DNA from: Ulota crispa
Taxonomy: Eukaryota > Streptophyta > Bryopsida > Orthotrichales > Orthotrichaceae
NCBI GenBank assembly: GCA_963920765.1
Contig: OY987247.1
Location: 22,478,471 to 22,542,470 of the forward strand
Direction of reading: 5' to 3'
DNA: 64,000 nucleotides
A program made the position numbers and the translations under genes. Shown here piece after piece: positions 6,526 to 64,000 of the stretch. The notes under the pieces were generated by a model. That model searched no databases. It was not told the origin of the DNA and saw only the letters and a program-made list of their open reading frames with translations. Position 1 is the stretch's first letter, and each line of letters starts with the position of its first letter.

Positions 6526-6919
6526 TAGGAAGTGGGAAGTTCAAGTGTCCAGATTTCCACATATGGGGTGGGGTCTATTTGCTTTACAAGAGGCCTCCAA
6601 AGGAGACAATCTCTTACTATTTGTGGGCTAGGTTTATGACAAGGAGGATTACAATACTCTAGAAAGTAATGATCATTGCATGAAGTCATATGTCATGCAA
6701 GTGGACACTGACATCTTTATCAATGGAGATGTTGTAAGGGGGAATGTAGTTGGTTTTATCAATAGCTCAATAGGCAAGGAGGGTATTGGTAATGTGATTT
6801 GGGAATACAGGATGGAACTCTAGCCGTGGAATTCCTATGAGGTGGGATTTGTGATGACAATAGCCAGCAAGAATATTGCTGTCGGAGAGGAACTTTATGC
6901 AGAGTACACTATGAATTGA
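6526..6919 (+). pseudogene. Decayed SET-domain (lysine methyltransferase) fragment
   Basis: After an AG acceptor-like site near 6527 one frame reads a GxG-type start (ISTYGVGSICFTRGLQ). A frameshift near 6600 leads into a single frame from 6602 to 6919. That frame contains the N-x-x-x-F-I-N-S core (RGNVVGFINSSIGKEGIGNV, then IWEY) and the C-terminal GFVMTIASKNIAVGEELYAE followed by Tyr-Thr, the usual GEEL..Y segment. Stops lie after FVG (TAG, about 6629-6631) and after YRMEL. The GxG, NxxxFIN and GEEL-Y motifs in correct order identify a SET domain. SET proteins transfer methyl groups from AdoMet to lysines, usually on histones. The NHSC motif is replaced by NSSI and I see no post-SET cysteines. 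It is not of the SUVR type seen at 57-58.6 kb. Confidence 0.72.
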
Positions 6920-8372: not shown

Positions 8373-9943
8373 TTGGGCCTGGTGTACCCAGCTTGGAGAC
8401 AAAAAAGCAGCACAATTAACAATAGAGAAAGGTCAAGAGGAGAGGAGCCAACAACGAGGTCGAGGGAAGAAGAATTGAGTACGACAGTCGACGCAGACAC
8501 AAGTCATGTCAAGGTCATGCATATGATTACTGATTGGTTTGGGAGGTACAATAGCATTAATATCAACGACTAGCAAGACAATATTGGCAAATTGAATGCA
8601 CATGAAGGAGACAAAGAGGAAGCAGGCCTTGGGGAGAATTTAGATCACTCTCCGTTGCTAGAGAATTACTCAGAGGAGGATTTGTCCGCTGCGTTGACCT
8701 TGCATTCAAAGGACCCGTCCGATGTGGACGTGGAAGAACTCTTGAACAAGGCAAACACCCCTCTTTTCTCCAATAGCACAAGAAATCGATTAACGTTGAC
8801 CTTGTTGCTCCTAGTTTGTTGTACAACTTTTGGAGTGTTCAATAGTTTTGTGGAGGAATTACTAAAGCTCTTGACAGGGACGCTACTACCCAAGGAGAAC
8901 ACCATGCCCTGTACATTCCACAAGGCCAAAACTTTGTTGATGCGGTGAGGCTTATCATATAACTCGATTCATGCTTGCCCAGATGGGTGCTACTTATTTT
9001 GTAATGAATTGCAAGACGCTAAGGAATGCCCACACTGCCACAAATCAAGATACGTAAATAATTCAAAGACGGTGCTAGCTAAAGTGCTTAGGCACTTTTT
9101 GCTGATACCAAGGTTGAGATGTATGTACAGCTGCGTGCAACTTGCAAAGCTGATGAAATGGCATGTTGCCGGGAAGAGCAAGGACAAGATTACAAGGTTG
9201 GTCATGGACTCTAAAGCTTGGAGTCACGTGAACAACAGGTGGCTTGACTTTGCCAAAGAAACAAGGAACCTCAGATTGGGTCTAGCATTAGATGGTGTAA
9301 ATCCATTTCAAAATCAAAGTCTCAGTCATTCTACGTGGCTTGTGATCATCATCAACTACAACCTCCCTCCTTGGTTGGTATCAAAAGAATTCTTTCTAAT
9401 GCTAACTTTAATAATACCCAAGAAAAAAAGTGTGGTAGATCAAAATATTGATATTTACAGGGCCCAACTAATTGAGGAGCTGCAGCTTCTATGGAAAGGT
9501 GTGGAGTGCTTGGATGGCTCCTTGAAACAGTCCATGGATAGGAAATTCAAGCTTCATGGCATCTTGCTTTGGACTATCAACGACTTTCTTGCTTACGGCC
9601 TCATCTGCGGGCAAGTGACAAAGGGTCACAAAGCTTGCCTTGTATGCGGTCCTAGCTTGGACACTAGGCAATCAAAAGCTTTAAAGAAAAACGTGTATTT
9701 AGGACATCGTTGTTATTTGGGAATGGATCATTTCTAGAGGTGTTAAAAATCAAGTTGCAATGGTAACCCCAATCTACGACCTCCGCCACAAAGAATGAGT
9801 GGGTCAAAGCTTGCCCAATTTGCAACGACACGTGAGGACTGGAAGTGCAGTGAAGGAAGAAGAAGAAATGGGCGCATAGAGAATTTGTGCATGCGCACGG
9901 TGTGAAAAGGCGGAGTTCTCTACATGACTTGCCGTATTGGAAG
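8373..9943 (+). pseudogene. tnp2-type CACTA transposase, N-terminal and central part
   Basis: One plus-strand frame runs from 8373 to 9737 with only two internal stops (TAG 8571-8573, TGA 8946-8948). Landmarks of plant Transposase_21 (tnp2) appear in order: ANTPLFSNSTRNRLTLTLLL, SYNSIHACPDGCYLFCNEL, then CPHCHKSRYV, and later LRLGLALDGVNPF and GHKACLVCG. After 9737 the frame breaks but the conserved RPPPQRMSG and a SSLHDLPYWK segment follow, ending at a GTAATA splice donor (9944). The family cuts and moves CACTA elements in the nucleus by binding terminal and subterminal repeats. As read it cannot make a full protein. Confidence 0.85.
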
Positions 9944-38604: not shown

Positions 38605-41600
38605 GGAAGAGGTGGAGGCTTGGTTTTGTAATCATTTTTATAAATTGCTTGGAAGGAGATGGTTTATCAATGCTCATCTGGAGGATTAACCTGCATTTCT
38701 TTGGACATTGAACTTTGCAAATGAATAAAGCAACTACCTATATTGAAATGTAAGAGTTATGCATGTAGGATGGTGGACAAGACAAATGGAATGTGGAAGA
38801 ACAGCCCCCTAGCAAATGTTGGAGTCAAAGGAAGAGAATAATTGACAATTGAGCATTGCCAAACTGCGTAAGGTTTGCTGCTGTTATTGTATGCCTTTGA
38901 CATTGATCATGCAACATGAGTGGTTGTTATTTTTTCTTTTATGGATTCTATTGCACTAAATACCGTGTATCTACTATTGAAATGTTGGGTCACTCTATAG
39001 AATGTTGTACAGTAGGTTGCCTATATGGCTAAAGCCGATGAAGTTGTGTACTTCATCATGATGGAAGGTGTGTGTTGATTGGCACGTGAAAAGGTAACGT
39101 CCCTAAAATACGTCAAAGTGGATGCATGATGTATATGTTATGTTGCAGCAAATCTCTTCATATTCCTTTCAATCTCTTCATATGCCAATGAATACGGAAT
39201 GTTAATTTGTAAATTGTGTGAATCTCTTCCGTCATAAATGTTTTCAGTTGCTTCACATCCAAGTAAGTAAATTTATTCACTCGCGGCTAGAAGAAATGGT
39301 GTGAGGTTTATGTGACGGCAATAGCAGTGATGCTTGACTGGTGTTGGCTAATACAAGGGTAGGGCAATCCTATATTGCATGGCACTAATTATGTTGTTGG
39401 AGTAGGAAAGTACTGAACTGAATTTCCTGGTGCACACTGTTTATGTTAGTAACATTTGTCATATCAAAGACGTTTGCATGGTCAAGTAGACCAAAAATGG
39501 CAAATAAAACCTCATAAAAAGCCCATAACTTTGAGATTTTTGCAAGTATGGATCACAAAGTGTTTGTTTTCCTTTATACAAATACATGCATGATAAAAAA
39601 AAGACCAAGCCATATAGCCATTAAGAAGGCTTTTGCAAAAGAAAAATAAATAAACTAAAAAATATTAAAATCATTAAGATATTGCCGCTTAAACATTCAG
39701 CCTTAATTTGGGCACTAAAATGTCCATAGCTTTTATTGTATATCACTTGTTTAAAATTATAGCACGTTTTTCAAATACTTAAAAGATGTTAAATCACATA
39801 TGTAGTGCTTATGTACGCATTATAGCTAACTTGATATGTTATGTCTATCATTTTCATAGGATGCTGTGAATGGAATAGTCCAAATACATGCACTAAAAAG
39901 TCCCTTATTTCTTATATTATCAAATTTAACAAACATTGATTACATATTTTGTTTTATGAACAAGTATAGAATATATTCACTAATTTAGGATGTTTCCAAG
40001 CTCTTTCTTCTATAAGAAATAAGTCAAAACATGTTCTTGAAAATTGAATGGGACATGCATTTTGGTCCAACCAACCATGCATCCACCCTAAAGAGAAACG
40101 CATAAATGTATGTCGTAGTTTGATCATGTGTTGATAACATTATAATTCTAGGCTCCTCTAATGAGATGCTATATGAGTAGCAAGTACGTGATATGTGGAT
40201 CCCAACCTAAACATGATTGAGTTTTTGATTTTATGAGAATGGACTGTTAGGCTTGAATGTCAATGAGTTTGTTTTGCTTTTGGCTTCATAGAACATGAAG
40301 GTGAGCTGTAGAATTGGCTGCATAAGCGTATGTGTTCACTTGTTAATATGCAAGGTATAGGTAGTCATTGCTTGAAGAGTATGTTCGATTTGGATTACAA
40401 ATGTCAATTCTTTGTGTACTTCAAAGGTAAAGGGAATGGTGAAGTTGGTAGTCCTCTAGAGTCTTTGAAGTGTTGGTAATGTTGTTGACTAAGTTAATGT
40501 GTGAAGAGACAACCTTCCAAACTTGAAAGTTTGAACTCCCTTTTGGATGTATTGAATTTTGATTATGTATAAAAATTTCTATGTCTTCAGTTTTCAAAGC
40601 TGTGGTTAATCATTTGCAAAGCTTGGACCTAGTAGAATGCACTATGGGCATAGTATTTGAATAGCAAAGCTTTTAGACTGTGTGTTGTTTTTTGTCTCAT
40701 GCCTTCTTATAGGATAGTACCAAACATAAGAAGTGAGAGTTTATTTATGGCGGGTAAAAGCACACTACGGTGGTCCAAAATTGTAGTCACGGGAGAATTT
40801 TTGCACAAGAAGAAAGTTTGGAGTCCATTTTGCTATAGTTCCTTTGACTTTTTTCTTCAAAAGAAAACGGAGTGAAGTCTTACATCTTGTAAATTTTGGA
40901 AATTTCATGTTGAAAAGTGATTCTCATCTATTAATTAATGTATGGAGTACAAACATTCAATGTTTGTACTGTCACAAATTTTGGTTTAGCATTGTTGTAC
41001 TTATTTTGTTAAGTTTAGGGTTTCATTCTTGCAATGCAAACAGCTAAGTTTAGTGTTCTAATATTTAGGTAGAGTGTTTTAGCAATATATAAGGGTTTAG
41101 GGTTTCTTATAATTAAATATTCTTGCAATTGTGTGATTTTAGTATGAGGCCTGTATTTTGAGTTTAAAATGTTTTTTTTTTAGGTTTAGTTTGAGAATCT
41201 AGGAAAAGACCGTTTTATGTAGATGGGCCAACATCAAAGTATGGTTTATTATATGTTTAGGGTCTAAAATTCTACCAGAGAGATTTGCACCATTTTTTAG
41301 CCTTCATCATGTGGAAGCCTTTAGAGTCTGCCCATTGTTCAAGGAGTGTATAGTGCCTACTTGTTGTACATTAGGGACCAATAGCTGTTCACCATGTACC
41401 ACTCTAAATCAAGATACACTTGCAATGTCCAATATATGCACTGTGCTTTTGCAACGGCATTCCCTCCTGCTAATTTGATGAAAATTGCGGCTGTGTCCTA
41501 ATTTTGTCTTCTCTCCATAATGTCTCTAGTCATTTTGAATTTGAAGTACTCTAAGTGGAGTTTCAAGAAAGTAAACCAACTTCACTCCTTTGTTTACAAT

Positions 41601-41933: not shown

Positions 41934-42264
41934 TAAGGTAGGAGGCTCAAATTTGGCACAAGCTCAAATTTGGAGCACCTCCTCAAATGCACTCTTTCTA
42001 TACATCTTATTTTTCATAGCCCTTCAACAATGTACAACTCATGTACATTTGAGGAGGTGCTCCATTTTAGAGCCCTATGGCCTTTCCACTTCAAATATTC
42101 ATTACTAATTTCACAAAGTTCCAAAAAATATGAAACAACTTGGATTAGATGCAGATTCTTCTTGTCTTTCAAGGAAAGTTTATTGAAAATCATTTCAAGG
42201 AGTTCCACCTACCCAAAATTCAGTTTTAGTCCTTAGATGCTCCATTTATGAGCCTCCTACCTTA
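41934..42264. mobile_element. Foldback MITE with nested inverted repeats (331 bp)
   Basis: The left end TAAGGTAGGAGGCTCAAATT and right end CCATTTATGAGCCTCCTACC plus TTA are inverted copies over about 23 bases with three to four mismatches. Inside is a perfect 18-bp inverted pair, GGAGCACCTCCTCAAATG at 41972-41989 and its complement at 42046-42063. There is no coding capacity. No clean target duplication was recognised; neighbouring TTA/TAA triplets hint at a Harbinger-type insertion but do not prove it. Confidence 0.7.
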
Positions 42265-42877: not shown

Positions 42878-43876
42878 ATGATGGCGTCTGACAACAAATG
42901 GGTGGTGAGAAGCCAAGTCTTTTCCAAAGAAGATGATCATTGCAGTGGTTTTAGCAATAATGGATTCATAGACGATTGTCTTGCTGCTACCTCGCTGGGT
43001 GTCAAAGATAGTTTAAAACCAAACGTGAATAAGGACCCCCTATACAAAGAATTGGAGAAGTTGGCTTTTCTAAAGAAACATCCTCCTCCACACGATGTTT
43101 CTATAGAGGACTTCAAAAGCAAGTACGGTTTGCCAAAACATGGTAAAAACCCACAAAAACTTATGATTCCACAAGACCTCCTTGAAAAAGACTTGAAGGA
43201 TGTATTTGGATCAGCAAAGGGGAAAAATGGAAGAACTGGATATGCTTATGCGGAATGCCAAGATGAAGATGTCCTTGCTCGCATTGCCGAGAATTTCCCA
43301 CTTGTGTATCTATGTGATCTACCAAGGTCCAAGGTTATAGCAAAGGAATTTGCTAGGGGTATAATTATAGAGATGATCAAGAAAAAGCCTGTCAGTTGGG
43401 CAGAGTTTGTTGGAACATTCAACAGAAATCAACGGAGTAAATGGTTGAAGAAGGTCTTGTTATGTTTATTGGCCTTGGCAAACATCATTGGCAATAACAA
43501 AGACAAACTATACAAAGCAGAGGGCATTGACGACTTTTTCCACAACTGCATTGCCAAACTTCAAAAGACTAAGCACAAGGAGGAGTGTATTGTACAATAT
43601 AGTACAAAGAACGCACAAGATGGTATAGAGATCAAAAAAGACATTACAAACCTTGCCCAACTAGCAAAGTTTGTGGGATTACAGCTACATGCGGTAACGG
43701 AGGAATATATCAGCACTGGAAAGGAGAAGGAGCAATTGTCTATCAAGGCATCACAAGAAGAAAGGGTGTTGCGGAAGACTGAAGCCAAAGTTATGAAGTT
43801 GTACAAGGTTCAGAAAGCGGATTCCACTAAGGTAACCTTAGATAGAGCAGAGCAGGGGTTGTCAAAACTGACTTGA
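42878..43876 (+). CDS. Unrecognised 332-residue protein, paralog of 53557-54420
   Basis: Two in-frame ATGs follow a TTTTGTTTTGCAG acceptor at 42867, so the start lies just inside a second exon. Residues about 55-75 (PLYKELEKLAFLKKHPPPHD) lead into EDFKSKYGLPKHGKNP. Then come FGSAKGKNGRTGYAYAE, FARGIIIEMIKKKPVSWAEF and a C-terminal helical region rich in Lys and Glu. These blocks recur in the same order in the decayed copy at 53557-54420, which shows that they are conserved. No catalytic motif, signal peptide or membrane segment is seen. The stop at 43874-43876 coincides with a probable insertion; the gene likely continues at 44190. Confidence 0.6.
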   Translation: MMASDNKWVVRSQVFSKEDDHCSGFSNNGFIDDCLAATSLGVKDSLKPNVNKDPLYKELEKLAFLKKHPPPHDVSIEDFKSKYGLPKHGKNPQKLMIPQDLLEKDLKDVFGSAKGKNGRTGYAYAECQDEDVLARIAENFPLVYLCDLPRSKVIAKEFARGIIIEMIKKKPVSWAEFVGTFNRNQRSKWLKKVLLCLLALANIIGNNKDKLYKAEGIDDFFHNCIAKLQKTKHKEECIVQYSTKNAQDGIEIKKDITNLAQLAKFVGLQLHAVTEEYISTGKEKEQLSIKASQEERVLRKTEAKVMKLYKVQKADSTKVTLDRAEQGLSKLT

Positions 43877-44175
43877 TGTGGGCTTTTCATGTCGAGATGT
43901 CATGATGCGTCTGTCATGACACGTCTTGACCCGTCACAATCTGTCCCCTGAACCAATGGTCCATCTAGGCATGGATGAAGTTCATCAACTTGGGCCATCC
44001 ATTGAGGTATTTTGTTTACCAAAATTGTCCACCACTGACGATGGAACTTCCATCTAGAGGCTATTCTCATCCGTTGTTGATGATACTATAGACGAACACA
44101 TCCAGACAAACTTCAAAGTTGAATCTTGACATCTTGTCCGTCATCCGTCCGTCATGACTTGACGTGACGGGGACA
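43877..44175. other. Probable inserted element rich in GTCATGAC words
   Basis: The coding frame stops at 43876 and coding character resumes about 44170. Between them GTCATGA, ATGACACG and GTCCGTCATGACTTGACGTG recur. The two ends share inverted GTCATGAC/TGTCCCC-type words. Its position inside an otherwise continuous coiled-coil gene suggests a short DNA insertion of about 300 bp. Exact ends and target duplication could not be fixed. Confidence 0.35.
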
Positions 44176-44189
44176 ACTTTGGAGCAGAG

Positions 44190-45685
44190 ATGTACAACAA
44201 GATGGTAAATGACGCAAAGCACGATTATGATGCAGCTGCGTTAGAATTAAAAGAATGTATTGTGAAGTACGAGCAGCTTGAAGCCAGAGAGACGTGTTTG
44301 AGGAGGCAATTTGATGCCTTGTCATCTCAAATTGCTAATATGAAGATGGGTGAAGTTGGAGTGGAGTTCAGACCAAGACCTCTTTCCTCCCAATTTGACT
44401 CTACCATAGTCTGCAATTTTGGCACCATTTCCATGACACCCTGTGCACTTTGCTTCAGTGGATTTGCTCTCAATGATAATATAGTCTACACATGCGGCCA
44501 TTTGTATCATCCATGGTGTGCTGAGGTTTGGTTTGGAGTTGCTAGCAAGTGTGCCAATACTTCTTGCAGTAAAATAGAGCATCCTTTTTGGTTTAGGAGT
44601 TTTGGATTTGCCAAACTACACGCACCTCTTTAGCAATTGGTACAATCTTTGGAATTAGAGGAGGAACAAGAGAGGCTCCTCACAAACAAGACATTGACAA
44701 TTCTAGATGGGCATCCACTAATCGGTACACAACTCTAACCTAGTGCTTAAAGCCTTATGCAATGTCGAAACTTGTATATTAGTAGTACAAGTACTACATA
44801 CCTTGGTACCGTAAGGTAAACATTAGTACGTTATAGTCTAATATTATATACAACATGTGTGCAAGTAGTACGTAACAATGGAATAACATTGGCTTTACTA
44901 TACATACTGCAAAGGAATCTCTATTGATCTGCGGTTTCAGTCTACTAATTTAAGAAATAACTTCTTCTGATTTTTGTGGTGTAGATCTAGAGAAACTATA
45001 CCAAGAGCAATCAAAGAAATACATGGTGTCAACACGGACTCGTAATTTGGTCCAGTCCAACACTGTAGCTTCTACAAAAAGCACAATGCCCTTGCTCACT
45101 CTTACCGGTGGGACTACCGGATTGATTGGTGGAATTGATGTTTTTCAAAGCTTGGGCAATGGCAGTGCCACTGGTAGCGATCGAGGTTGTGGTAAGTTTG
45201 CCCAACATCCTTCACTTGTAACGTCAATTCCCCTCCTACCATCTATAGATGAAGTCATAAAGCCTCTTCAGATTAGCCCTGAGGTTGCAGAGGCAATTGA
45301 AGATGCTATCATAGAGCCTCTTGCAGGAGATGTTTCCAACATGTCTTGCAGGGTAGGAGTTGAGGCTGAGTTACAGGAGCATATTTAGAAGTTGAAAGAG
45401 GATGATGCAAAATTTGAAAGAATAGAAAATTTAAGACAAGAAGCTAATGACTTAGAGCGTTGCAAGAAATTAAGAGAGGACGCATCCAAGGTAGATGGAG
45501 TGACTAAGGTGGTGGTGAAGGTCTTGCAGCTCCCACTTCTACCTACATGTGACAATGACATTGCTATATTCAAGCAAAAGACTAGGAGTGAAATAACGAT
45601 GGAGGAAGCAGCAATGGAAGTAAAAGAAGCAAAGAAGAAACCAAAGAAAAATAAGAGGAGTCACAGGGTTACTCCACTTGGTTAG
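44190..45685 (+). pseudogene. Coiled coil, RING-like finger and Lys-rich tail; continuation of 42878 gene
   Basis: Exon 1 (about 44166-44724) encodes a coiled coil and then a finger reading MTPCALCFSGFALNDNIVYT, CGHLYHPWC, KCANTSC. The C-x2-C, C-x-H-x2-H-x2-C, C-x4-C spacing is RING-H2-like, except that the last pair is wider than usual. After a TAG at 44631-44633 the frame goes on to a GT donor at 44725. The intron ends at 44984, and the next exon joins in phase (G+AT giving Asp-Leu-Glu-Lys). It runs to 45685 with one TAG at 45386-45388 and a basic tail (KEAKKKPKKNKRSHR). RING-type fingers often mark ubiquitin ligases; here function is not inferable. The finger recurs at 54619-54770. Confidence 0.6.
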
Positions 45686-50714: not shown

Positions 50715-51630
50715 TTTTTTTTAACCCCTAATATTATTTTGTGTTTAGAGGCCCAAAATTGCTTCAAAATACTAGTCCCCAAATCAAGGTCGAAATCTTC
50801 ATTGAAACTAAATTTTTAACAAATCCAACCATAGGATCCTTTGGTTGACCAGCATAGGTTCATTATCCCAAAATTTTAGAATGAATTCATATCTCCACCA
50901 ATTGCAAGATCAATATGTCTAAACTTCAAAATGTAGGTTTTTCTAGTCCTTCTAGAAGGTGAAATTTTGTTTTCAAACTTTTTAGAAAAAAACTCATATG
51001 TTGTATTTCTTGTGCAATTTTGGCAATATGTTGGAAAATGGTTTGAAAGCATATATAAAAAAATTTAACCAAAAAATTTTGGATTCTTTTCTACAAAAAT
51101 TGTAAAGTGAAAGGTATTGATGAATGAAAGATATAACTTATATGCTAATAAGTTTTGGAAGAATTTGAGAATTGTTAATCCCAATGGTGAGAATGTTGTA
51201 AGAGAAAATTAGTAACTTTGCTTTTCATTTTCATTTGAAAATTTTCAAAATTGAGAGTAAAAGATAACTTTATATGTTTTTTCTACCTTCTTCCTACCTT
51301 CATTGCTTGCAAAAGAAAACTCCTTGTAATTCTTACCTCGTTATTTGGAATTGAGTGATTCGATTTTTTTTGAGTAGGTGTTAATCTATACAATTCTATA
51401 AAAAAATAAAAAATAAGAAAAGAATATATTTTTTGCTGCTCGATTTGACATTGAAATTGAAAAAACCTTATAACTTTTGCATTCCTTATCGGAATGACAT
51501 GAAATAAAGCTTCCCATGTAGATTATGATGAGTAGCATTCATCCTAAAATCTTCATGAAAAAATTCCTAATCATGAAATTGATAGAGCTTGCCCAAGTTC
51601 TCATAAAGCCCAAAGTGGGCTCCTTAGGCT
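50715..51630. repeat. Right arm of a large inverted repeat
   Basis: This is the inverse of 47262-48175: GAGGCCCAAAATTGCTTC at 50747-50764 corresponds to the inner end of the left arm, and TCATAAAGCCCAAAGTGGG at 51601-51619 to its outer end. Similarity fades beyond about 51640. A transcript across both arms could form a long hairpin. Confidence 0.82.
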
Positions 51631-53068
51631 TTTAGGGATAAAACCCAAATACACCCATGTCTTCCTTCATTATTATATTTATGTGTGTTTTTACAACAAT
51701 AATGATACTATTAGTGATCCCTTATTAAAATTTAGTGTCTCTTTATGAGGGTTTAGGGTAACAAGTGTTTTGGTTTATTATCAAGTAATTATTCTTTTAT
51801 GAAAATAATGACACCCTCTTTTGTTTGTTATTTGGTTTCTAATTTTTTTAAATAAGAATAATAATGCCTAGATCTATTATTGTTTACATGTCAATGTTTT
51901 CTTTATTAGATGAAATACACATGTATTACTTTGTAATGTGTATCCACTTGAAAATTAGGTAATGAATTTTTTTTGAAACTATCAATGCATCAATTGGAAA
52001 AGACATTATAAGTTTAAGTAGATAATAATTATGTTCGTTCTTTGCATTGAATTCTGGTGTTTAATTTCACTTGCTTATTTGTGCTACCTGTCACGTCCAC
52101 TTCCAAGTTGATTGGTGGTACCTGGTTGGCCTTCAAACAAACCAATGATTAACAGTACCTTGCTGAGTTGCTAACTTGGAAGCCTCCAATTTTCTCTCTC
52201 AAGTCTCAACGTGTGATTTTAGGTGTCAGCACTCTTGTTTTTTGAGGTCATCGTCTGTGTTGGAGTTTTTTTTGTTTAGAGCCAATACTATTATAAATTT
52301 TTTGCTTTTAGGGTAAATACTACGTTCAAAGACAAGGATTTGTTGTATCCACAAGCTCAAAGGGTGTAACACATTGCAAGAACAAATTGCTACAAGGAAG
52401 TACGCTCCCCTTTGTAATGTGCCATTTTGTTTCAGTAGAGTTGCTTTTGCTCTATTGTGTTATTTGTTTTCCTATTGTTTTGGGACATTTCTACAAATTG
52501 TGCTAGTCCATCTAAGTAGGATTTTCTTTTCTCTTTCAACTAAGGTGGATTCAATTGCAACGAAACCCTAGTTGCTGGAGTGCAGTGCAAGGGATTGAGA
52601 GCTTGTAAGCGACTTCTCTAGTCAATCGGGATGAAAATCACCATAGCGCAAGCGGTGTAGGGTGCAATTTTCCACAAGTAATGTGGAAAGAGAGGAATTG
52701 TGGAATCGAACACGGTAGTGAGGAGGTAAATTTTATTAAAATTGTTCCTCCCATTGTTTTTAGTATGTGCAGTGCGTGAAATTTTTGTGTAGATTATATT
52801 GTTTTGGAGGGGTAGTACTTAGTTTACATGAATTACAATGCATTCTCAATACTTTCCATCTTCCCTCCTCTTGCATACAATAATTGTACATCTTGTACTT
52901 CTTTTGGATGTGTAGTATTCATTTTAAACATATGATAGTGCGCCTAGAATGCTTTTTGTCTCTCCTTCATTGTGAATTTCTTGTAATCAGTAGGTAAATT
53001 TAGCAAAATAGCAGTGCTTTATTGCTTTTCTCTTCTACAAGAGAAATTTCTAGGTTTAGAATTAAGAT
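51631..53068. other. Possible promoter and 5' untranslated exon of the 53-kb gene
   Basis: GCCAATACTATTATAAATTT (52281-52300) contains CCAAT and TATA-like words. A less AT-rich segment from about 52360 to 52726 ends AGTGAGGAGGTAAATTTT, a plausible splice donor. A T-rich tract and AG precede 53069. This fits a leader exon and intron before the coding region, but there is no expression evidence. Confidence 0.25.
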
Positions 53069-53617: not shown

Positions 53618-54951
53618 TACTCATCAGAGAAGATTTTGTCAAGAAATATGGTTTCAAAGATGAAGGATACTTGCCAAATTGCTTAATCAAATGGGGAGGC
53701 AAACCATTTGATGACAACAAATGTGTCTCTCTATTTGGATAGCCGATGGGGAGGGATGGACGCTACGGTTACAATTGGAAGGAAGTGAAGTTGCAAAGGA
53801 TTCAAAAGAGGATCAAAGAGCATTTTTGAGCCCTGTATCAATGAGGAGATCCTTGTGCATTGCTTCCTCACAAGATGGCAAGGGGGATTGTTTTGGAAAA
53901 TGAAAACACTCCAGTGAATTGGGTTGCTTACGGGGAATTGACAAACAAGACTAAGCTTTCCAATCACAAGAGGAATGTCATCCAATTCCAGAAAATTAAA
54001 AAGATGAAGGATAGGGCAAAGGAGACTGGAAAGGCTAGACATCAAGCTTGGCAAAAACTTCACGTGGACAAAAGAGAGTTGCAGCCAAAGATTTGCAAAG
54101 GGAGAGGAAGCTTGATGGGTGGAGGAGTTTTGGAGGAGGAAGAATGCAACTCTAGGTTTGAATCTTTGGGCCAGTTGTTGGCAGTGGAGAATTTAGAGCT
54201 TGAGGTTAAGTTGGATGTTGAGCAGGAGGTTAATGCAGCAGAGGAAAAGCAAGTGGAGGGACTGAATCATCACAAAGGGGTATTGGAGATTATGAAAATC
54301 AAACAAAAGATATATGAGAGGCAATTATTTGCAGCAACCACAAATGGGCTGGTAGGATTGAAGTTAAGGGAGAAAGTGGAGGCGTACAACAATTTAGTAT
54401 GTGGCGTTCAAAAAAAGTGAAGAAGTTGGAGAGGTTTGTCTCTACCTTAGAGGAGACTCTTAAGCTCAAGCGCAATGGAGTTGTGAAGATGCGGATGCAG
54501 GTTTGTGCTTTGAAGGAGGAGCAAGCTTATTTTGGGCGTCCATCATGCGGGTTTCATTTGCGACCATAACCTTTGGTATATGTCATAGGGGAAACAAATA
54601 GTAGAGGAGAATCTTTTTGAGCCCTCTGCGGATTTCCCTTCCCTCATTCTGAGATGATTGTCTCTGCATGTAAACACCTTTATCACCCATGGTGTGCGTT
54701 GGTAAATATCACTAAGAGCACAAAATGCGCTACTTTGGATTGCAAGCAAGGCCAGCCCATTGAATGTACTATGAGTTTTGGTTGGAGGGGTATTTGTGGG
54801 TGTGGACATCTTGGAGGTGGGATTGAAGAGTGGACAAAGTTGAAGGCCAAATGTAACATTGGTATCACTGGAGGATTAGCAACTAGGAGTGATGCAGCAA
54901 CAAAAATCTGTACATCCATCCAACAATTTAGAACAACCACTGACAAAGAAG
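53557..54951 (+). pseudogene. Decayed paralog of the 42.9-45.7 kb coiled-coil/RING-like gene
   Basis: A single frame from 53557 to 54420 (288 codons) carries stops at 53740, 53827 and 53842. It aligns block by block with the protein at 42878: DKELEKLTHPPL, EDFVKKYGF, GRDGRYGYNW, KMARGIVLENENTPVNWVAY, then coiled coil. A run of seven A at 54410-54416 marks a frameshift. The following frame continues the coiled coil (KKLERFVSTLEETLKLKRNG) to the finger ALCGFPFPHSEMIVSACKHL then YHPWCA and KCATLDC. The first finger cysteine is replaced by TGA (54618-54620). The exon ends at a GT donor at 54952. Confidence 0.68.
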
Positions 54952-56588: not shown

Positions 56589-58567
56589 GATGGTGGTGAC
56601 AAGACAGACAGTGATGGTGGCCTGTGCGTCATTGAGGAAAACCCTGGCAAAAAGGGAGTGGCTAAAGCCACAACTGAACAAACAACGCAGTGCTCACAAG
56701 CGGTTGGCAAGGGCGGTGTTGAAAAAACCATAGTCGGCACAAGCGATGTTCATGACAAAACCACTAGCGGAGTTGGAGGGGGACAAGGTCCTAGTACTGG
56801 TGGAGTTGCAAAAGGAGAATGCCCTAGTGCTGGTGGAATTCAATTAAGAAAAGGTTGTCGCATCAAAAAAAAGGTGGACAACAGAATCGTTGGAGGGGGA
56901 GTGGATGCAGAAGGCACCACTAGAGAAAGGGAAGATGAGGTTGTTGAACCACGATACCCCACAAGATTTGGGTATTTTATTGTCTTAGTGATTTTAATTT
57001 TTTTGGTTTCCTCTTATGCATACAAGATACAATCATCGTCTACAAGTACATGACATTTTTTTTTCTGTTGGTTTTAGGGGGAAGAAGCAAAAGGACAAGG
57101 ACATAGGGAAGCAAAAGGATAACAAGACAAGCACTTAAAGAAATAAGAAGCCCAAGCAAAAAAGACCCAAAGTAAGCAAATCAACAGTAGTGATATGAGC
57201 TGGGAACCCAACTCCTTGCTCCTTTTAATGTATTGTTTGTTGTTTCATTCATATAGAAAAAAATCTTGGCCATTAGGAGCTTACATGCTTTTGAGGTTGT
57301 ATTCCTGTGTATAGGAGCAACTGTGGTATGATGCACGAGACTTGTCCAACGGATTGGAAAATTTTCCAATCACGATGTGTGTGCCATGTATGGGATTCCA
57401 TGCTTTAGAAGAATTTACTTATTGTCCTCAGTCCAAGCTATCTACAAGAACATCTGAGAAGCTGGCTAAAAGGGAAATAGATTTCCCCACTTCTTGCCGA
57501 TATGGTGACTGTACTTGTCATGGGCAATGCTAATGTGGGGTGAATCATATTTTGTGCTTGTGCGTGGCGTGTGACAAACAAGGTTGTCTATAGAGTTCCA
57601 TTCTAAACAAACAAGTGAGTAAATTTTTTATATCTTTGCATTATGCAATATTTTTTACCTTTGCGCTCATACAACTTCATACTTTTATATGTAAACATGT
57701 ATATTGCGTATTGATTATGTACTAGTTTAACATTGGATAATGAGTAGATACTGATTTGTACACTTGGTATGTTGTGAAGGATGAGACGTTATTTTGCAAG
57801 GTACAATTATCTGAGGAGCAAGATTCTGCATGCCCTAGCCATATCAACTGGGTTTTCCTTCAAGAGTGCATACACTCTTGCATATGCAGTGGAAAAAGAG
57901 TAATGAAAAAAGGATTACAAATTCCCATTGAGGTTTTCTGGACAAGAGAGAAAGAATGGAGATTGCGTGGGAAAAAGCGTGTCCGAAAGGGGAGTTTTGT
58001 CTTTGAGTTTGTAAGGGAAATAATTACAAACGAGGAACTAATGCAGCGGAGGGCTTCTTCAAATATGAGAAAAGCTGAGGCATTCATGCTAGCACTTGAT
58101 GCGGATTGGAAATCCAAGCTGCTAGCAACTGATGATGTGGCATTGTGCATAGATAGCACTCTATCGGGGAATGTCAGTAGATTCCTAAACCACAGGTATT
58201 TGCCATAATTATACTTGTTCCTTGTAAATTATAGTTGTTGTGATTGATATAGTATAAATTTACAATTCATGATACTTGTGATGTTTCAAATTTTATTACA
58301 TGTGGTTGCTTGTTTTCTAGATGTGAAGATGCAAACCTCGTTGATGTGCCCATCAAAATGAGCTGCAAAGACCCAAGAATTTACCATGTTGCATTCTTTG
58401 TATGGAAAGATATTCCACCATTGGTAGAGTTGACATGGGATTATGGATGTAGTTTTGAAATGCCACTTGTAGATGTTGTAGTACAATTTCATTGTAAGTG
58501 TGGTAGCACTCACTACCATGACAAAGAAAATCCCCCAATTCATCCAATCAATGACTTTTTAGCATAG
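56589..58567 (+). pseudogene. SUVR-type SET-domain histone methyltransferase pseudogene
   Basis: Five exons (56589-56971, 57078-57171, 57315-57614, 57780-58195, 58321-58567) have GT-AG introns and matching phases, giving 480 codons with stops only at 57136, 57531, 57591 and the end. Exon 3 has the pre-SET start (ALEEFTYCPQSKLSTRTSEK). Exon 4 has HINWVFLQECIHSCIC, the SET N-terminal half and ALDADWKSKL. The exon 4/5 junction restores SGNVSRFLNHRCEDANLVDV, the NHRC motif of plant SUVR1/2/4 proteins, followed by PPLVELTWDYG and FHCKCGSTHYHDK. SUVR proteins methylate histone H3 lysine 9 in silent chromatin. The cofactor GWG is EWR here, EYxGE is EFVRE, and the third post-SET Cys is Tyr, so it is inactive. 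Confidence 0.85.
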
Positions 58568-61397
58568 TGTGAGAACTAATGAATCTACGTGGTGGATGTA
58601 TCAGTGAAGTAATTGGTGCTGGGTTGTATCTAGCATTATGATACTAGTGCTGCTATATTGTGTTCCCATAGTTGCAAATGTCTAGACATCCGCCCAACAC
58701 ATGTTAGTACTAAAAGATAACTACATTGAAAGACAAAACAATCATGCAAGGAAGATTGAACTATGTTTAAATGTAAAGTTTGTATATTTTGTACAAAATT
58801 GTATGCATAGTATAAAGTTGTATTTAGGGTATGAAATTGTACGCATGGAATGATATATGCATGTGTTGCAAGCAAGGACAACAAATAGTTGTAAATGACA
58901 TATATTCATACGCACATTTGATTATGGGGTGAAAGACCATCAGTGCATGAAACGCATGGACTCTTGTAACTAACTTTGGTAAAGCTAGTTAAAACTTGTA
59001 TTATATAAAAAAGAACCACCTATGTACAATTGATTGTGAATAGTAGTTCTAAACGCTAGTCTTTTTGCAAGACCATTGTCTACCACATTCTCCCTCTATC
59101 ATTGCTAATAATATCAATTTCAACCCATACTGACAATATGACCTACATAGTAATCATTAGCATTATACTCCTGCAATATGCCACAAATTATCCTCAACAT
59201 TCAAAGCAATAAACATCTAAAATCAACAGCTAATTCTATTTGTAACAAGCAATGTCATATTATGTCTAGAATCAATGGGGATAGAAGCCCCACACTACAA
59301 ATTCAATATTATAAAATATGCCACACTACAATGGTAATTTTAATACTAAACCATAAACCCTAAGCATTGGAGGGAAATAAGTCTTCATTTGCCAAAAAAC
59401 ACTTCTATGTCAAGTAATGTCCAATATCTAGACAATGCAGCAACATGGCCACATCCTTCTGATTGTGCAGTACATTCCAATGTTTGTGAGCCTCATTGTG
59501 CATGATAGGATAGTGGAAGACGCTGAATTGAATTTTGCATAGAAGCCTCTGCCCACAAATCTACCTAGCAATAAACACATTCAAAAGCAATCGTAAGACT
59601 ACATACACGCACAATTTAGTACTAAGTTCAAGTCTAGTAATTACTTATGGAAGAAACATAAACAAATGATGATGTAAAATTAGCGCTGTAAAAGATGAGT
59701 TACTCCCATGCAACTTGGCTTTGGTACCACTGAGACCAAATACTCCAAGGATCTCCAAAGGAAAAGGATTGTGAACTCCACCTATTGCAAACACTGCAGA
59801 AGCACTTTCACAAGTGCGTGAGCTGCTTCTCTTGCACTTCCGCTTGCTCTCATAATTTGAAATTGCGAGGTCCTTTCACCATCGTAAGAGTACTTAGGAG
59901 CTTAATGAAAACCTCGGTCTACTAATTTTGACTCAGGGCTCAATATTAGGGAACAAAACAACCACATCCAAGAGATTCAAATAGATTGTATATAGCTTAA
60001 TAAATATTGAATGCCTCTAGTCCATGACCTTAGTGTAATTGTTGTCATCAATAAAGATAGTACATAAGGTCCAATTGAATTTACAATGAAAGGTATACCT
60101 ATGGATTTAGTACTCCATGTTTAGATTTTCTTATTGGTAGTACAATTGTTAATAATTTAAATCAAAGACAATTGTTCCATTTGGATTGACTAGAACTATT
60201 GTAAATATTAGAAGTACAACATGTAATCACAAACATCACAAACAATGAAAATTTGGAACTAAATGTAATTCAATGATTTTGAACATGAATATGGGTTACA
60301 ATTAGTACAATTAGTACTAATGATACCAGAAGGTGGTACTGCAGTGATGTACTAACATTCCTTTAGTTACAAGTTTTGGTACAAATGCATTTGTACTACT
60401 GCACACATTAGAAACACTACAATTTCTAAAGTTCAAGCAACTCAACAATTTAGAATTTGGACCTTGGTTGAAGGTAGTACAATTTGTATTCTTTGAACTA
60501 TAAGATGGTAGCGCAACACTTTCCAAACATTCAATTCAATTACCAATGTTGGTGCAAATGCAATTGTCCTGTTACAATGACATACAATTCATAATAAGAA
60601 TAGTACATGAACCATCACAAAAACTGCTGATGTACAAAGAAATGAGGAACTTCCATAGTGAGTTCAAGAATTGTACGTCATGAATCTGAACTCCATTCTC
60701 TCTAATGCATAGAGGATAAGCGCTTGAAATTTGTAGCCACTATTATACTACTTGAAGGAAACAACTAAATCAGAACAGTACGCTCATTTCTAGATACTAA
60801 TGGCTTTTCATTCCATTGGATTAAGATAGTAAATCTATGACCATCTTACACTACAGTTGAACATAATTCAATGTAATGAATGCTTACAATTTGTATAACA
60901 TAGAAAGATAATAATTAGTGCATTAAAATGAAGAATATGTCTCAATTATGTTGTCATGGGTAAGGATTTGAAAAAATGGAGAGCAAGACAAGAGCTGGAC
61001 TTGTTGACTACGCCATGTGCAAACTAGAAATCTGGAACTACCGCATTCAATTCGAGACTATAATCAAACACAGCGCTAATGATGCCTTCAAATTGACCAT
61101 TGGAAGGAACCATTTTGAGATTCCTACAGTAAACAAACCAAAAGCACAGTGTCAATTAGTTCTAGGGTGTGTGCATTACATTATAGCTTGTACGATAAGC
61201 ATTTGAGAAGCTAGCTGAGAACTTCTCCTACTCCCTTGTCCTTTCAGACTTTGGAGCCTTCTTTTTTTGCCAATGGAGGCCCGCCCTAGCCATTGAGGAA
61301 CTTGACGGAGCCCTCACGACTGCCCATGTGCAAGGCCATATTATCTTTACTCTCCACACTAGGCCCTCTAACCTTGATCAGTAGTACAATTCTCTAG
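58568..61397. other. No convincing gene; GTACAA-rich
   Basis: Short frames only. The one at 60976-61206 starts with ATG (MESKTRAGLVDYAMCKLEIW) and is not recognised. GTACAA/TTGTAC words are frequent between 58780 and 60680, often paired in inverse order, as in GTACAAATGCATTTGTAC (60372-60389). Confidence 0.45.
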
Positions 61398-62035
61398 CTA
61401 GCCTGCCTCCCCTTCCACGTAAAAAAAAAATACTTGTTGACAATGCACAAGGAAAGCAAACAATTCATAACCAAAAGGAGCAAGGCAATTGAAGTTTGCC
61501 ATGGTAAGACCCCACTCATCTTTCTTGACAGTTGCATTTGCACCCCTGTAATTTGCCTTGACCCAATCACATACAATTAGTACAATGCAGTGGCGTCCAT
61601 AGTTTAAGTCAATTATCTCCAATATTTGCCTTATATACTCAAGGGATGCCTCTACGGGGTTCAAATCTCCTCTGCTAGTTCAATAAGGTCTATGAAATAT
61701 AGCAGCTATCCAGACTCACAGGTTTTAGTGATATTCTCCTTTGCACTTTTCACTCTATAGTGGTATCTGTAAGTATACATACTCTTGAATTTTTGTGCAA
61801 GTAAAGATGGTGCTCTTGAAAAGTCTGCAACATCATCAAGAACATGGTGGCCATTTGCTTCAGCATTTGCAACTTGCGTTTTCAACCACTCTGCAAACCT
61901 CGAAATGTCCTCTAAATCACTAGGATATGGCACCCATCTTCTGCCGGTCCTTTGTGGATGTGCTCTACGGAATTTTACCCTAGCGTCCATTGTGTCTTGC
62001 CTAGCCCGAGCCCTTTTGTATGTCCTGCACAACAT
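61398..62035 (-). pseudogene. DUF4216-like domain relic, element C
   Basis: Two minus-strand frames in different phases (62035-61706 and 61664-61398) together read ARVKFRRAHPQRTGRRWVPY, QKFKSMYTYRYHYRVKSAKE, NPVEASLEYIRQILEIIDLN, YRGANATVKKDEWGLTMANF and CQQVFFFYVEGEAG. This is collinear with 26448-27038 and 11496-12300. A frameshift and stops near 61680-61705 break it. It belongs to a third CACTA copy, distinct from elements A and B. Confidence 0.72.
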
Positions 62036-62329
62036 TCAAAACGGCATTCTAAGTCAGTGATTGGAAGTTACAAATGTATTGATGCCAAGCATAAGCACTG
62101 CTACATACCATAAATCATCACTCATTATTATAAATTGTAAGACTCAGTAGCTTCATTCTTAGATATTCATATGGATATTTCATTGTACATGAAAACTACT
62201 ACTTCAAATTCTTATTTAGAGCATGCACTAATAGCACAAATGTTCAAGCATAAGTACTTTCTTGATTAGGCTATCAAAAAAAAACATAGTACATCAAGAA
62301 TAAGCTCACCTATGGTACACCTCAAGATG

Positions 62330-62650
62330 GCTTGAATTGTCTAAAACAAAATTGTGCATTGCATTCCACAATTCTAAAGACAAATGTCTTGATTTCCTCT
62401 TTCCCTCTAGAATCTTGTCCACCATTGTTGGGTCCTTGTTTTCATCCTATACTCTTCTGGATGTAATGTTATACTCAGACATGTACTCTATTATGAATCC
62501 TAAAGCTTCCTTTATCTGATAACCTTGAGCATTGTTTCCTTCCGATTTAGCTAGATTTTTAACAAATCCCTTCATACTAGAAATAACACTCTTACAAGTA
62601 CATCCACTTGGTGTGGAAAGGCCCAAGCAAGAAACAATGTTATCTTACTT
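62330..62650 (-). pseudogene. DUF4218 end and linker of element C transposase
   Basis: Reading leftward, GPFHTKWMYL matches the conserved R/KWMYPFER motif. VISSMKGFVKNLAKSEGNNA, IKEALGFIIEYMSEYNITS and DENKDPTMVDKILEGKRKSR follow in one frame, with a TAG replacing the Trp of the W-D/N motif. The same linker occurs in element A at 11080-11150. It shows that a full tnp2 gene once lay here; its upstream part to the right is missing. Confidence 0.65.
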
Positions 62651-62869
62651 GGAGCACAAACAAGCATAGTTGTTAGGATGTTGTACATCGTTATAGAATA
62701 GCCACATGTAATGCACAAAATATTTTGGGTTCTCTATCAAGACTTCTAACATGCAAACATCCTTCTTTTCTTATGTATTTCCATGGACATCACCTTAAAA
62801 CACTCACACAAGGCAGTTCAAAAAATTCATGAAAAATTTACAAGGTAATAAAACTACCATTATTTGAAC

Positions 62870-63309
62870 AGGGTATTGGCAAAGAATTGAAAGTTAAGTT
62901 TTCCATAACTATTTCAATATTTGACTTTGATAATCAAGTTGCTTCATTTGTGCATGGAATCATTCTAGATGTGGATACTTGCTTGAGAGAAGGAGACCGC
63001 CTTGAGCCATGGAGTGCATCAAGGAAATCTTTGCAAAGCACATCAAGAAGGAACAATGCAATTATGGCTTCCCTAGTTTTTGGAACTTGCATTCAGACAA
63101 ATTCTGAACAAGAGCCTCTAAAGAAAAATAGAGGACGCCCAAAATTGAAGTCAAAGTTACCACTTTGAGACAAGAACAATGGAAAGGTAAAACTTTGAAA
63201 GTAGCATCTACAGATGTTGTACTAGTTCAATTGAAGAAAGCGATACCTAATTTGGACGAGCTTTGCAAAAAGAGAGAAAACAATGCTGTAGCATGTGGAC
63301 GCAAGGTTA
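62870..63309 (+). pseudogene. AT-hook-containing exon, frameshifted, unrecognised
   Basis: After a TTTGAACAG acceptor near 62871 a frame encodes VDTCLREGDRLEPWSASRKS and then KKNRGRPKLKSK, a typical AT-hook (RGRP core) that would bind AT-rich DNA. It stops at 63168. A one-base shift continues as TLKVASTDVVLVQLKKAIPN to a CAAG|GTTAGG donor at 63310. The exon is followed within five bases by a CACTA terminus (63315). The family is not recognised. It reads opposite to element C and may be the host gene or cargo. Confidence 0.42.
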
Positions 63310-63314
63310 GGTTA

Positions 63315-64000
63315 CACTAGTAGAAAATTTAGCATAAAATCAACAAAATTTCAACCAAAAATTGTTGGTTTTTTCTATTGATTTGGTCAAGTTGATTTGG
63401 ATACTTTTCAACAAGAGTATGTTGATTTTCTGTTGATTTCTTGTTGATTATTTATTGTATTCTATTAATTTTTTGTTGATTTTCTCTTAAATTTCATGTA
63501 TTTTATGCTGTTCAATTCTATTTTTTTTAATTATTATTATTTTTTCATAGAATTTTCCTTTTTTTAAATAAAAAAGTGAAATTTTTATAAGGGCCGAGCA
63601 ACTGCCCGTAATGCCGGGCAATTGCCCATGGCGCCGGGCAGGGTTGCCAGCAGTGGGGTTTGAACCCCCCACCATTGGGTTTACAAACCACAAGACTACC
63701 ACATCATTCACAACCACTAGCACTCATGCACTCACACGTGCACAATAGAATCATGATTATATTTGTACATTAAATGTTCATGTTTTTGGTAAGCCCAAAG
63801 ACTTTGGAGGCTATTTTGGCCCATTAAAAGACTTTATTTTCAAGAAACTTAGAATTAAGAAAAGTTGGTAAATGTATTTTACTCTCACCTCCAACAAATT
63901 TTTTTGGATTTCAATCTTTTTATCAAAAGTTATGAGCTAAAATCAAAGAAGGTGTTTAGAAATTTTAAAAAAATTGTTTATTTCCATCCTTTTGATTTTG
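63315..64000. mobile_element. Left end of a further CACTAGTAGAAAA element, truncated by window
   Basis: CACTAGTAGAAAATTTAGCA starts at 63315, matching the ends of element B and of the MITEs. GTTGATT recurs at least five times between 63391 and 63480 as subterminal repeats. The element's right end lies beyond 64000. It contains the GC-rich tRNA-like segment at 63596-63716. Confidence 0.6.
63596..63716 (-). repeat. tRNA-like sequence or SINE head, plus CCGGGCA repeats
   Basis: On the minus strand, GGGGGTTCAAACCCC (63655-63669) is a perfect B-box/T-arm. Upstream lie a GATGTGGTAGTC A-box-like word and a GTGGTTTGTAAACCC loop resembling an anticodon arm. Downstream, three GCCGGGCAATTGCCC-like units occur in tandem (63592-63645). 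A real tRNA is unlikely because the acceptor stem does not close. A tRNA-derived SINE head or tRNA pseudogene fits better. Confidence 0.4.

Follow-up and report, generated by a model that had tools for sequence, protein, structure and literature searches.

We find that a SET-domain gene of Ulota crispa is likely the decayed cargo of a large, here truncated DNA transposon that probably moved by cut and paste, and in which its product would have played a working role in chromatin. The gene lies in a stretch of 64,000 nucleotides (hereafter the window) and is, judged by its sequence, an SUVR-type gene, i.e. a member of the H3K9 clade of SET genes. Plants use H3K9 methyltransferases to silence transposons, and a transposon-borne gene of this type is surprising because the enzyme normally acts to silence such elements. 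The features of the window copy, together with the full-length copy on contig C4, are as follows.

40752 to 61243, plus strand: truncated copy of a transposon with RING-like, SET and (in other copies) transposase-like genes, 89-91% identical to the copies on C3 and C4, excluding the inverted duplicate
40752 to 40776, plus strand: left end of the element, with GGGT as its first bases; together with the right end it forms an imperfect inverted repeat
42878 to 43876, plus strand: RING-like gene 1, N-terminal open reading frame of 332 aa, supported by dN/dS
44163 to 44633, plus strand: RING-like gene 1, coiled coil and RING-like finger, recognised by motif
50720 to 51641, no strand assigned: inverted duplicate of an internal element stretch, 83-85% identical to C3 and C4 in inverted orientation and not at this place in either
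53845 to 54782, plus strand: RING-like gene 2, paralogue of gene 1, finger 39-43% identical
56589 to 56971, plus strand: proposed first exon of the SUVR-like gene, with weak evidence that it is coding
57078 to 57171, plus strand: proposed exon 2, contains the stop at 57136
57315 to 57614, plus strand: exon 3 (pre-SET), contains the stops at 57531 and 57591
57780 to 58195, plus strand: exon 4, N-terminal half of the SET domain, by Pfam
58321 to 58567, plus strand: exon 5, C-terminal half of the SET domain and post-SET
61244 to 64000, no strand assigned: foreign sequence replacing the right part of the element, where other copies have the transposase-like gene
C4:11780927-11804066: full-length copy, about 23.1 kb

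The gene model of the first-pass annotation held in its essentials. The five exons add up to 1440 nt, or 480 codons including the stop, all four introns are GT-AG, the three in-frame stops listed above are present, and so are the altered motifs EWR and EFVRE and the post-SET Tyr. The retained introns also agree with its statement that the gene is not a retrocopy. The coding status of exons 4 and 5 is well supported; together they give a Pfam SET match with an E value of 9.6e-15, and exon 5 of the window copy is 81-96% identical to that of 15 siblings. For exon 3 the case is less clear, and for exon 1 it is weak, with the start of the gene proposed only; we dropped exon 1 as firmly coding, its dN/dS being 0.62-0.84 in the claimed frame.

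The affinity to SUVR proposed in the first-pass annotation is borne out by a tree of 13 rows limited to cargo, host SUVR and SUVH sequences, the host rows being named from sequence features. The two SUVHs are separated from the host SUVRs and from both groups of cargo with a support of 100/100. The cargo groups each form a clade (support 100), but their branching order relative to one another and to the host genes is unsupported, so that the tree is compatible with one capture or with two. In a PDB sequence search with a composite query, the best rows were Clr4 and EHMT1/2, followed by SUVH6, all of them H3K9 enzymes. We found two host SUVR genes (L008 and L081), which have neither of the partner genes described below near by and share 42-46% identity with W and C7, two SETs of group 1. 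By eye, an intron inside NHxC, after NHR, sits at the same place in the group-1 cargo and in both host genes, whereas the intron that the host genes have between the pre-SET and SET parts is absent from the group-1 cargo. The Pfam pre-SET family matched both host genes above its cut-off and a group-2 copy below it (E 0.0012), and gave no match at 0.1 for the group-1 exon 3 piece. A WIYLD domain was found neither in six window open reading frames upstream of the SET exons and seven non-SET frames of loci L076 and L007, nor in the two host SUVR frames scanned, which stop short of the N-termini.

Is the gene a lone copy? Exons 4 and 5 were used to search the genome to which the window belongs, an assembly of 157 contigs and 274.8 Mb, and gave 100 matches. 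These include 17 close loci, the window copy among them, with 52-91% identity between copies, and numerous distant SET matches, mostly at about 30-48% identity; merged, the matches make up 57 SUVR-like SET loci. In the close copies the DNA identity extends through the introns and the flanks.

The element has a recurrent gene order: one or two RING-like genes, then the SET gene, then a convergent transposase-like gene. The motifs of the latter resemble, by eye, those of DDE/D transposases, and may be similar to those of Sola2. Searched in the same genome, the transposase-like gene gave 78 matches, merged into 70 loci, and it occurs within 12 kb of 48 of the 57 SET loci, in all 48 downstream and convergent (random placement: mean 0.185, maximum 3 in 200 placements). 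The nine SET loci without it are the two host SUVR genes, two SUVH-type genes (L002, L003), the window copy and four others; for the window copy, the transposase pieces found no match within the 64 kb. A query with the RING finger gave 72 matches, and 45 of the 57 SET loci have a RING-like gene on their own strand no more than 17 kb upstream, at most of them at 2.5-3.7 kb (random placement: mean 0.22, maximum 2 in 300 placements). Both controls placed loci uniformly on the chromosome, irrespective of transposon density. Two upstream RING-like genes were found at 14 SET loci, and the window copy's subfamily has two paralogues of these coiled-coil/RING-like genes. By hand count, both partners are present at 43 of the 57 loci, and the order is kept even where the SET gene is only about 30-40% identical to that of the window copy. 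"RING-like" is a judgement from motifs, since the Pfam matches stay below the cut-offs (zf-RING_2 on the C4 copy, E 0.005). Likewise, the transposase-like frames of the C4 and C1 copies, which are partly decayed, matched no Pfam family, any transposase included, and a sequence search with the protein returned no PDB match; its assignment as a transposase therefore rests on the ends, the target duplications and the association.

Conversely, 22 of the 70 transposase loci have no SET locus from the search with exons 4 and 5 within 12 kb, although at C6:19.81 Mb a hit from a separate SET search (78 hits) adjoins one of these loci. The family member at C4:27999-30763 (reverse-complemented stretch) has no detected SET neighbour either. 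Since there are transposase-like loci with no detected SET neighbour, the SET gene may be dispensable for mobility.

We aligned 16 of the close copies, omitting the near-duplicate C11c, and found that most of the damage in the window copy is its own. The stop at 57136 is confined to it (eight copies have a sense codon, seven a gap), as is the stop at 57531, and the stop at 57591 is shared with one sibling, C8b. The catalytic and zinc-binding residues are partly lost in the window copy; this is mostly decay of a single copy, and the siblings keep most of them. In GWG, the first G is present in 12 copies, the W in 12 and the last G in 15; in EYxGE, the G in 13 and the E in 15; in NHxC, the N in 16, the H in 15 and the C in 16; and the three post-SET Cys in 16, 16 and 12. 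The F of EFVRE, previously counted as a loss, instead characterises the family: 11 of the 16 copies have F and five have Y. As to the missing pre-SET Cys, the window copy does have a stop at 57531, but only eight of the 16 copies have a Cys at this position (Tyr in six, Arg in one), so that this loss, read from the alignment, probably began before the window copy was inserted. None of the 16 is an intact group-1 copy, each having a stop, a deletion or a lost splice site in exons 3-5.

A gene that is decayed in 16 of 16 aligned copies could have been carried without use, a host SUVR gene swept up as in transduplication of the Pack-MULE type. The rates of substitution bear directly on this reading. 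Between clades 1, 1b, 2 and 3, SET exons 4 and 5 show a dN/dS of 0.28-0.36 (0.43 for the close pair 1 versus 1b), with a dN of 0.16-0.18 against an intron divergence of 0.42-0.47. Within clade 1, their dN/dS is 0.49 and the dN of 0.072 equals the intron divergence of 0.071, the pattern that copies decaying neutrally once inserted should show. For comparisons inside clades 1b, 2 and 3, the dN/dS is 0.36-0.38 and the dN is lower than the intron divergence; these values are near those between clades, so that the contrast of constrained and neutral is clear for clade 1 only. RING-like gene 1 shows a dN/dS of 0.28-0.36 against the single clade-2 copy C3b and of 0.38-0.51 within clade 1. For the transposase piece (10 copies), the values are 0.12-0.17 between clades and 0.24 for 1 versus 1b, compared with 0.36 within clade 1 and 0.21 within clade 3. 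Exons 4 and 5, RING-like gene 1 and the transposase piece are thus shown by these ratios to be constrained between element clades. Exons 1 and 3 show little constraint in several comparisons, as a passenger would; for exon 3 most comparisons give a pooled dN/dS of 0.54-0.66, those inside clade 2 a value of 1.00 and those of clade 2 versus 1 or 1b values of 1.20-1.23. However, the constraint on exons 4 and 5 between clades and the three-gene order at 43 of 57 loci, some with strongly diverged SET genes, argue against carriage without use, which we regard as unlikely. We therefore favour a cargo that was of use to the element.

The ends of the element are well defined. The homology of the window to the C3 and C4 copies begins exactly at 40752 and ends at 61243, and all three copies start at the identical base, with GGGTAAAAGCACAC, after unrelated DNA. 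Two stretches of the window copy, 41935-42262 and 43852-44182, are additional relative to C3 and C4. In C4 the termini, GGGT...ACCC, are imperfect inverted repeats of one another over about 25 bp, with 18 of 25 positions matching by eye; long terminal inverted repeats were not found in the element copies compared. A query of 2.5 kb over the right side of C4 gave 17 matches, of which eight end at query positions 772-774, and this sets the limits of the C4 element at C4:11780927-11804066; the remaining nine are C4 itself, six shorter matches and two to other repeats. Target duplications were scored by eye at both ends of C4 and of eight further copies, and eight of these are assessable, the left end of the copy at C6:7.42 being damaged. 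Exact 4-bp duplications flank the copies on C7, C9 and C2 (for the latter two if the right end is moved outward by one base), and duplications with one mismatch those on C4, C11 and C10:2.93. We found none at C8 and C10:2.19. A 4-bp duplication with at most one mismatch is thus present in six of the eight assessable copies, of which C7 and C9 are not independent. The fixed ends and the recurrent three-gene order show, on structural grounds, that the element has been mobile.

A mobile or viral integrant of another kind, large, not moving by cut and paste and carrying SET and RING-like genes, would be compatible with a transposase-like gene that Pfam leaves unclassified. We consider it very unlikely, given the short terminal inverted repeats, the 4-bp duplications and a scan of part of the element frames in which no viral family scored above the cut-off. 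The weakest candidate, a young pseudogene or a tandem or segmental duplicate of a host SUVR gene that arose without transposition, would fit the preserved introns and two pairs of copies that resemble larger duplications, but is extremely improbable, as there are 16 other close copies with common ends at nine other places or chromosomes and dozens of more distant ones, both partners accompany the SET gene at 43 loci, and the host genes L008 and L081 are as distant from the cargo as stated above and have neither partner near by. A DNA transposon, probably of the cut-and-paste kind, thus remains the preferred carrier. Of the two origins that the first-pass annotation had left side by side, the young pseudogene of one parent gene has to be given up, while the captured and decayed copy describes a gene that has stops and is the cargo of a DNA transposon; the remark that it lies among transposons can be sharpened, as it sits within a transposon copy.

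The two pairs are as follows. The copies at C7:0.17-0.19 Mb and C9:18.89-18.92 Mb (L068-L071) have common flanking DNA and the same TGCT duplication, and probably one arose from the other within a larger duplicated stretch. The copies at 5.57 Mb and 6.13 Mb of C11 have identical scores in the SET search, which points to a recent duplication inside that chromosome. Neither pair therefore represents independent insertions. Segmental duplication as the sole cause was rejected in view of the sharp common ends and the unrelated flanks. A CACTA-like terminus begins at window position 63313 (by eye) and another interrupts the C3 copy; the idea that CACTA carries the SUVR gene was likewise rejected, as these ends merely interrupt the element. 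Of 40 matches to the left end, about 25 have 70-75% identity and these lie, by eye, mostly away from SET loci (for example C6:20143687 and C1:36390892); related elements that lack the SET gene may be numerous.

The window copy also carries a mutational footprint. On its branch 716 of 14182 sites are substituted, compared with 464 and 465 on the other two branches. C-to-T changes on this branch affect 41 of 290 CG, 69 of 414 CHG and 219 of 4314 CHH sites (contexts counted in the C4 copy), and the enrichment of CG and CHG over CHH is, to judge from these substitutions, the trace left by DNA methylation. In plants, CHG methylation accompanies H3K9me2.

We infer that in active elements the SET protein would have been a working H3K9 methyltransferase that served the element's own life, most likely by setting the chromatin state of the element copies, and that the RING-like proteins perhaps acted together with it. 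After insertion each copy would have been methylated and then have decayed, as the window copy presumably did. A bolder version, tentative and rather improbable, by analogy treats the element as a mark-converting module: the SUVR-type enzyme would turn the silencing marks H3K9me1/2 on the chromatin of the element into H3K9me3, with the element's RING ubiquitin ligases helping, as Arabidopsis SUVR4 has a product that depends on ubiquitin, and so permit escape from H3K9me2-linked silencing, and CACTA elements would have recruited a second SET gene. Recent work in Arabidopsis describes H3K9me3, in the passages cited, as permissive (PMC13017857). If this version were true, transposons of this plant would have recruited histone methyltransferases repeatedly, as a strategy.

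Two further features of the window concern this second SET gene.

6548 to 6916, plus strand: second, unrelated SET-domain remnant, from the SET search
8949 to 9737, plus strand: CACTA transposase open reading frame (Transposase_21, tnp2; Pfam E 9.3e-53), downstream of the second SET remnant

Of the 78 hits of the separate SET search, 27 form a class 330-355 bp in length, to which the remnant belongs. Thirteen of the 78, each a member of this class, are followed on the same strand by a CACTA tnp2 domain at a distance of 1.3-2.3 kb, as scored for 150 of 596 CACTA candidates (random 0.44, maximum 4); the other 14 of the class have no CACTA partner within 4 kb among the candidates scored. This suggests a second, CACTA-linked transposon lineage with a SET gene.

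With 43 linked loci and strongly diverged subfamilies that keep the SET and RING-like genes, a possible manipulation of the H3K9 pathway by transposons becomes directly testable. A caution also follows: in such a genome, an "expanded SUVR family" may consist largely of transposon genes.

How does the element compare with known systems? By sequence the cargo shares the SUVR family with Arabidopsis SUVR4, an enzyme that methylates H3K9 and whose product ubiquitin influences (PMC7218100, PMC4260354) and which a title cited for it places on transposon chromatin; on the direction of the ubiquitin effect, the relevant passages of PMC7218100 are inconsistent. SUVR4 differs in being a host gene with a WIYLD domain. 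A link between the RING-like genes and this ubiquitin effect would be speculation by analogy, all the more so because the element frames scanned contain no WIYLD. In our own weighing, a working methyltransferase in the cargo is made less likely by Arabidopsis SUVR1 and SUVR2, for which the cited passages report no methyltransferase activity, SUVR2 working without catalytic residues (PMC4260354).

SET genes in DNA transposons are already in print for oomycetes, and the present element is thus a variant and not the first of its kind. HarbingerS and MuDR elements of Phytophthora carry SET histone methyltransferase genes (Kojima and Jurka, Repbase Reports 2014, as reported in PMC12730594), and the likeness is that a DNA transposon encodes a SET-domain methyltransferase. 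As far as that account goes, the Ulota element differs in the kind of host, in the plant SUVR-type SET gene with introns and in the RING-like genes alongside, and its transposase-like frames, unlike HarbingerS, match no Pfam transposase. In the open-licence literature searched, we found no plant transposon with SUVR cargo. Sola2 (Sola2-Fanzor) is similar in its 4-bp target duplications, its short terminal inverted repeats (12-21 bp, partly imperfect) and its uptake of accessory genes; the duplications are described there as AT-rich, whereas those found here include TGCT (PMC3627910). The fungal DNA transposons with TET/JBP genes, like the Ulota element, carry an enzyme that rewrites a silencing mark, which in their case is of the DNA demethylation type and here a histone methyltransferase (PMC12730594). 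Finally, VANC of the VANDAL elements is, in the sources as cited, a sequence-specific anti-silencing protein and no histone methyltransferase; the parallel is a plant transposon that encodes its own anti-silencing protein, a role which the SET protein of the Ulota element may have had (PMC5735166, PMC10398659).
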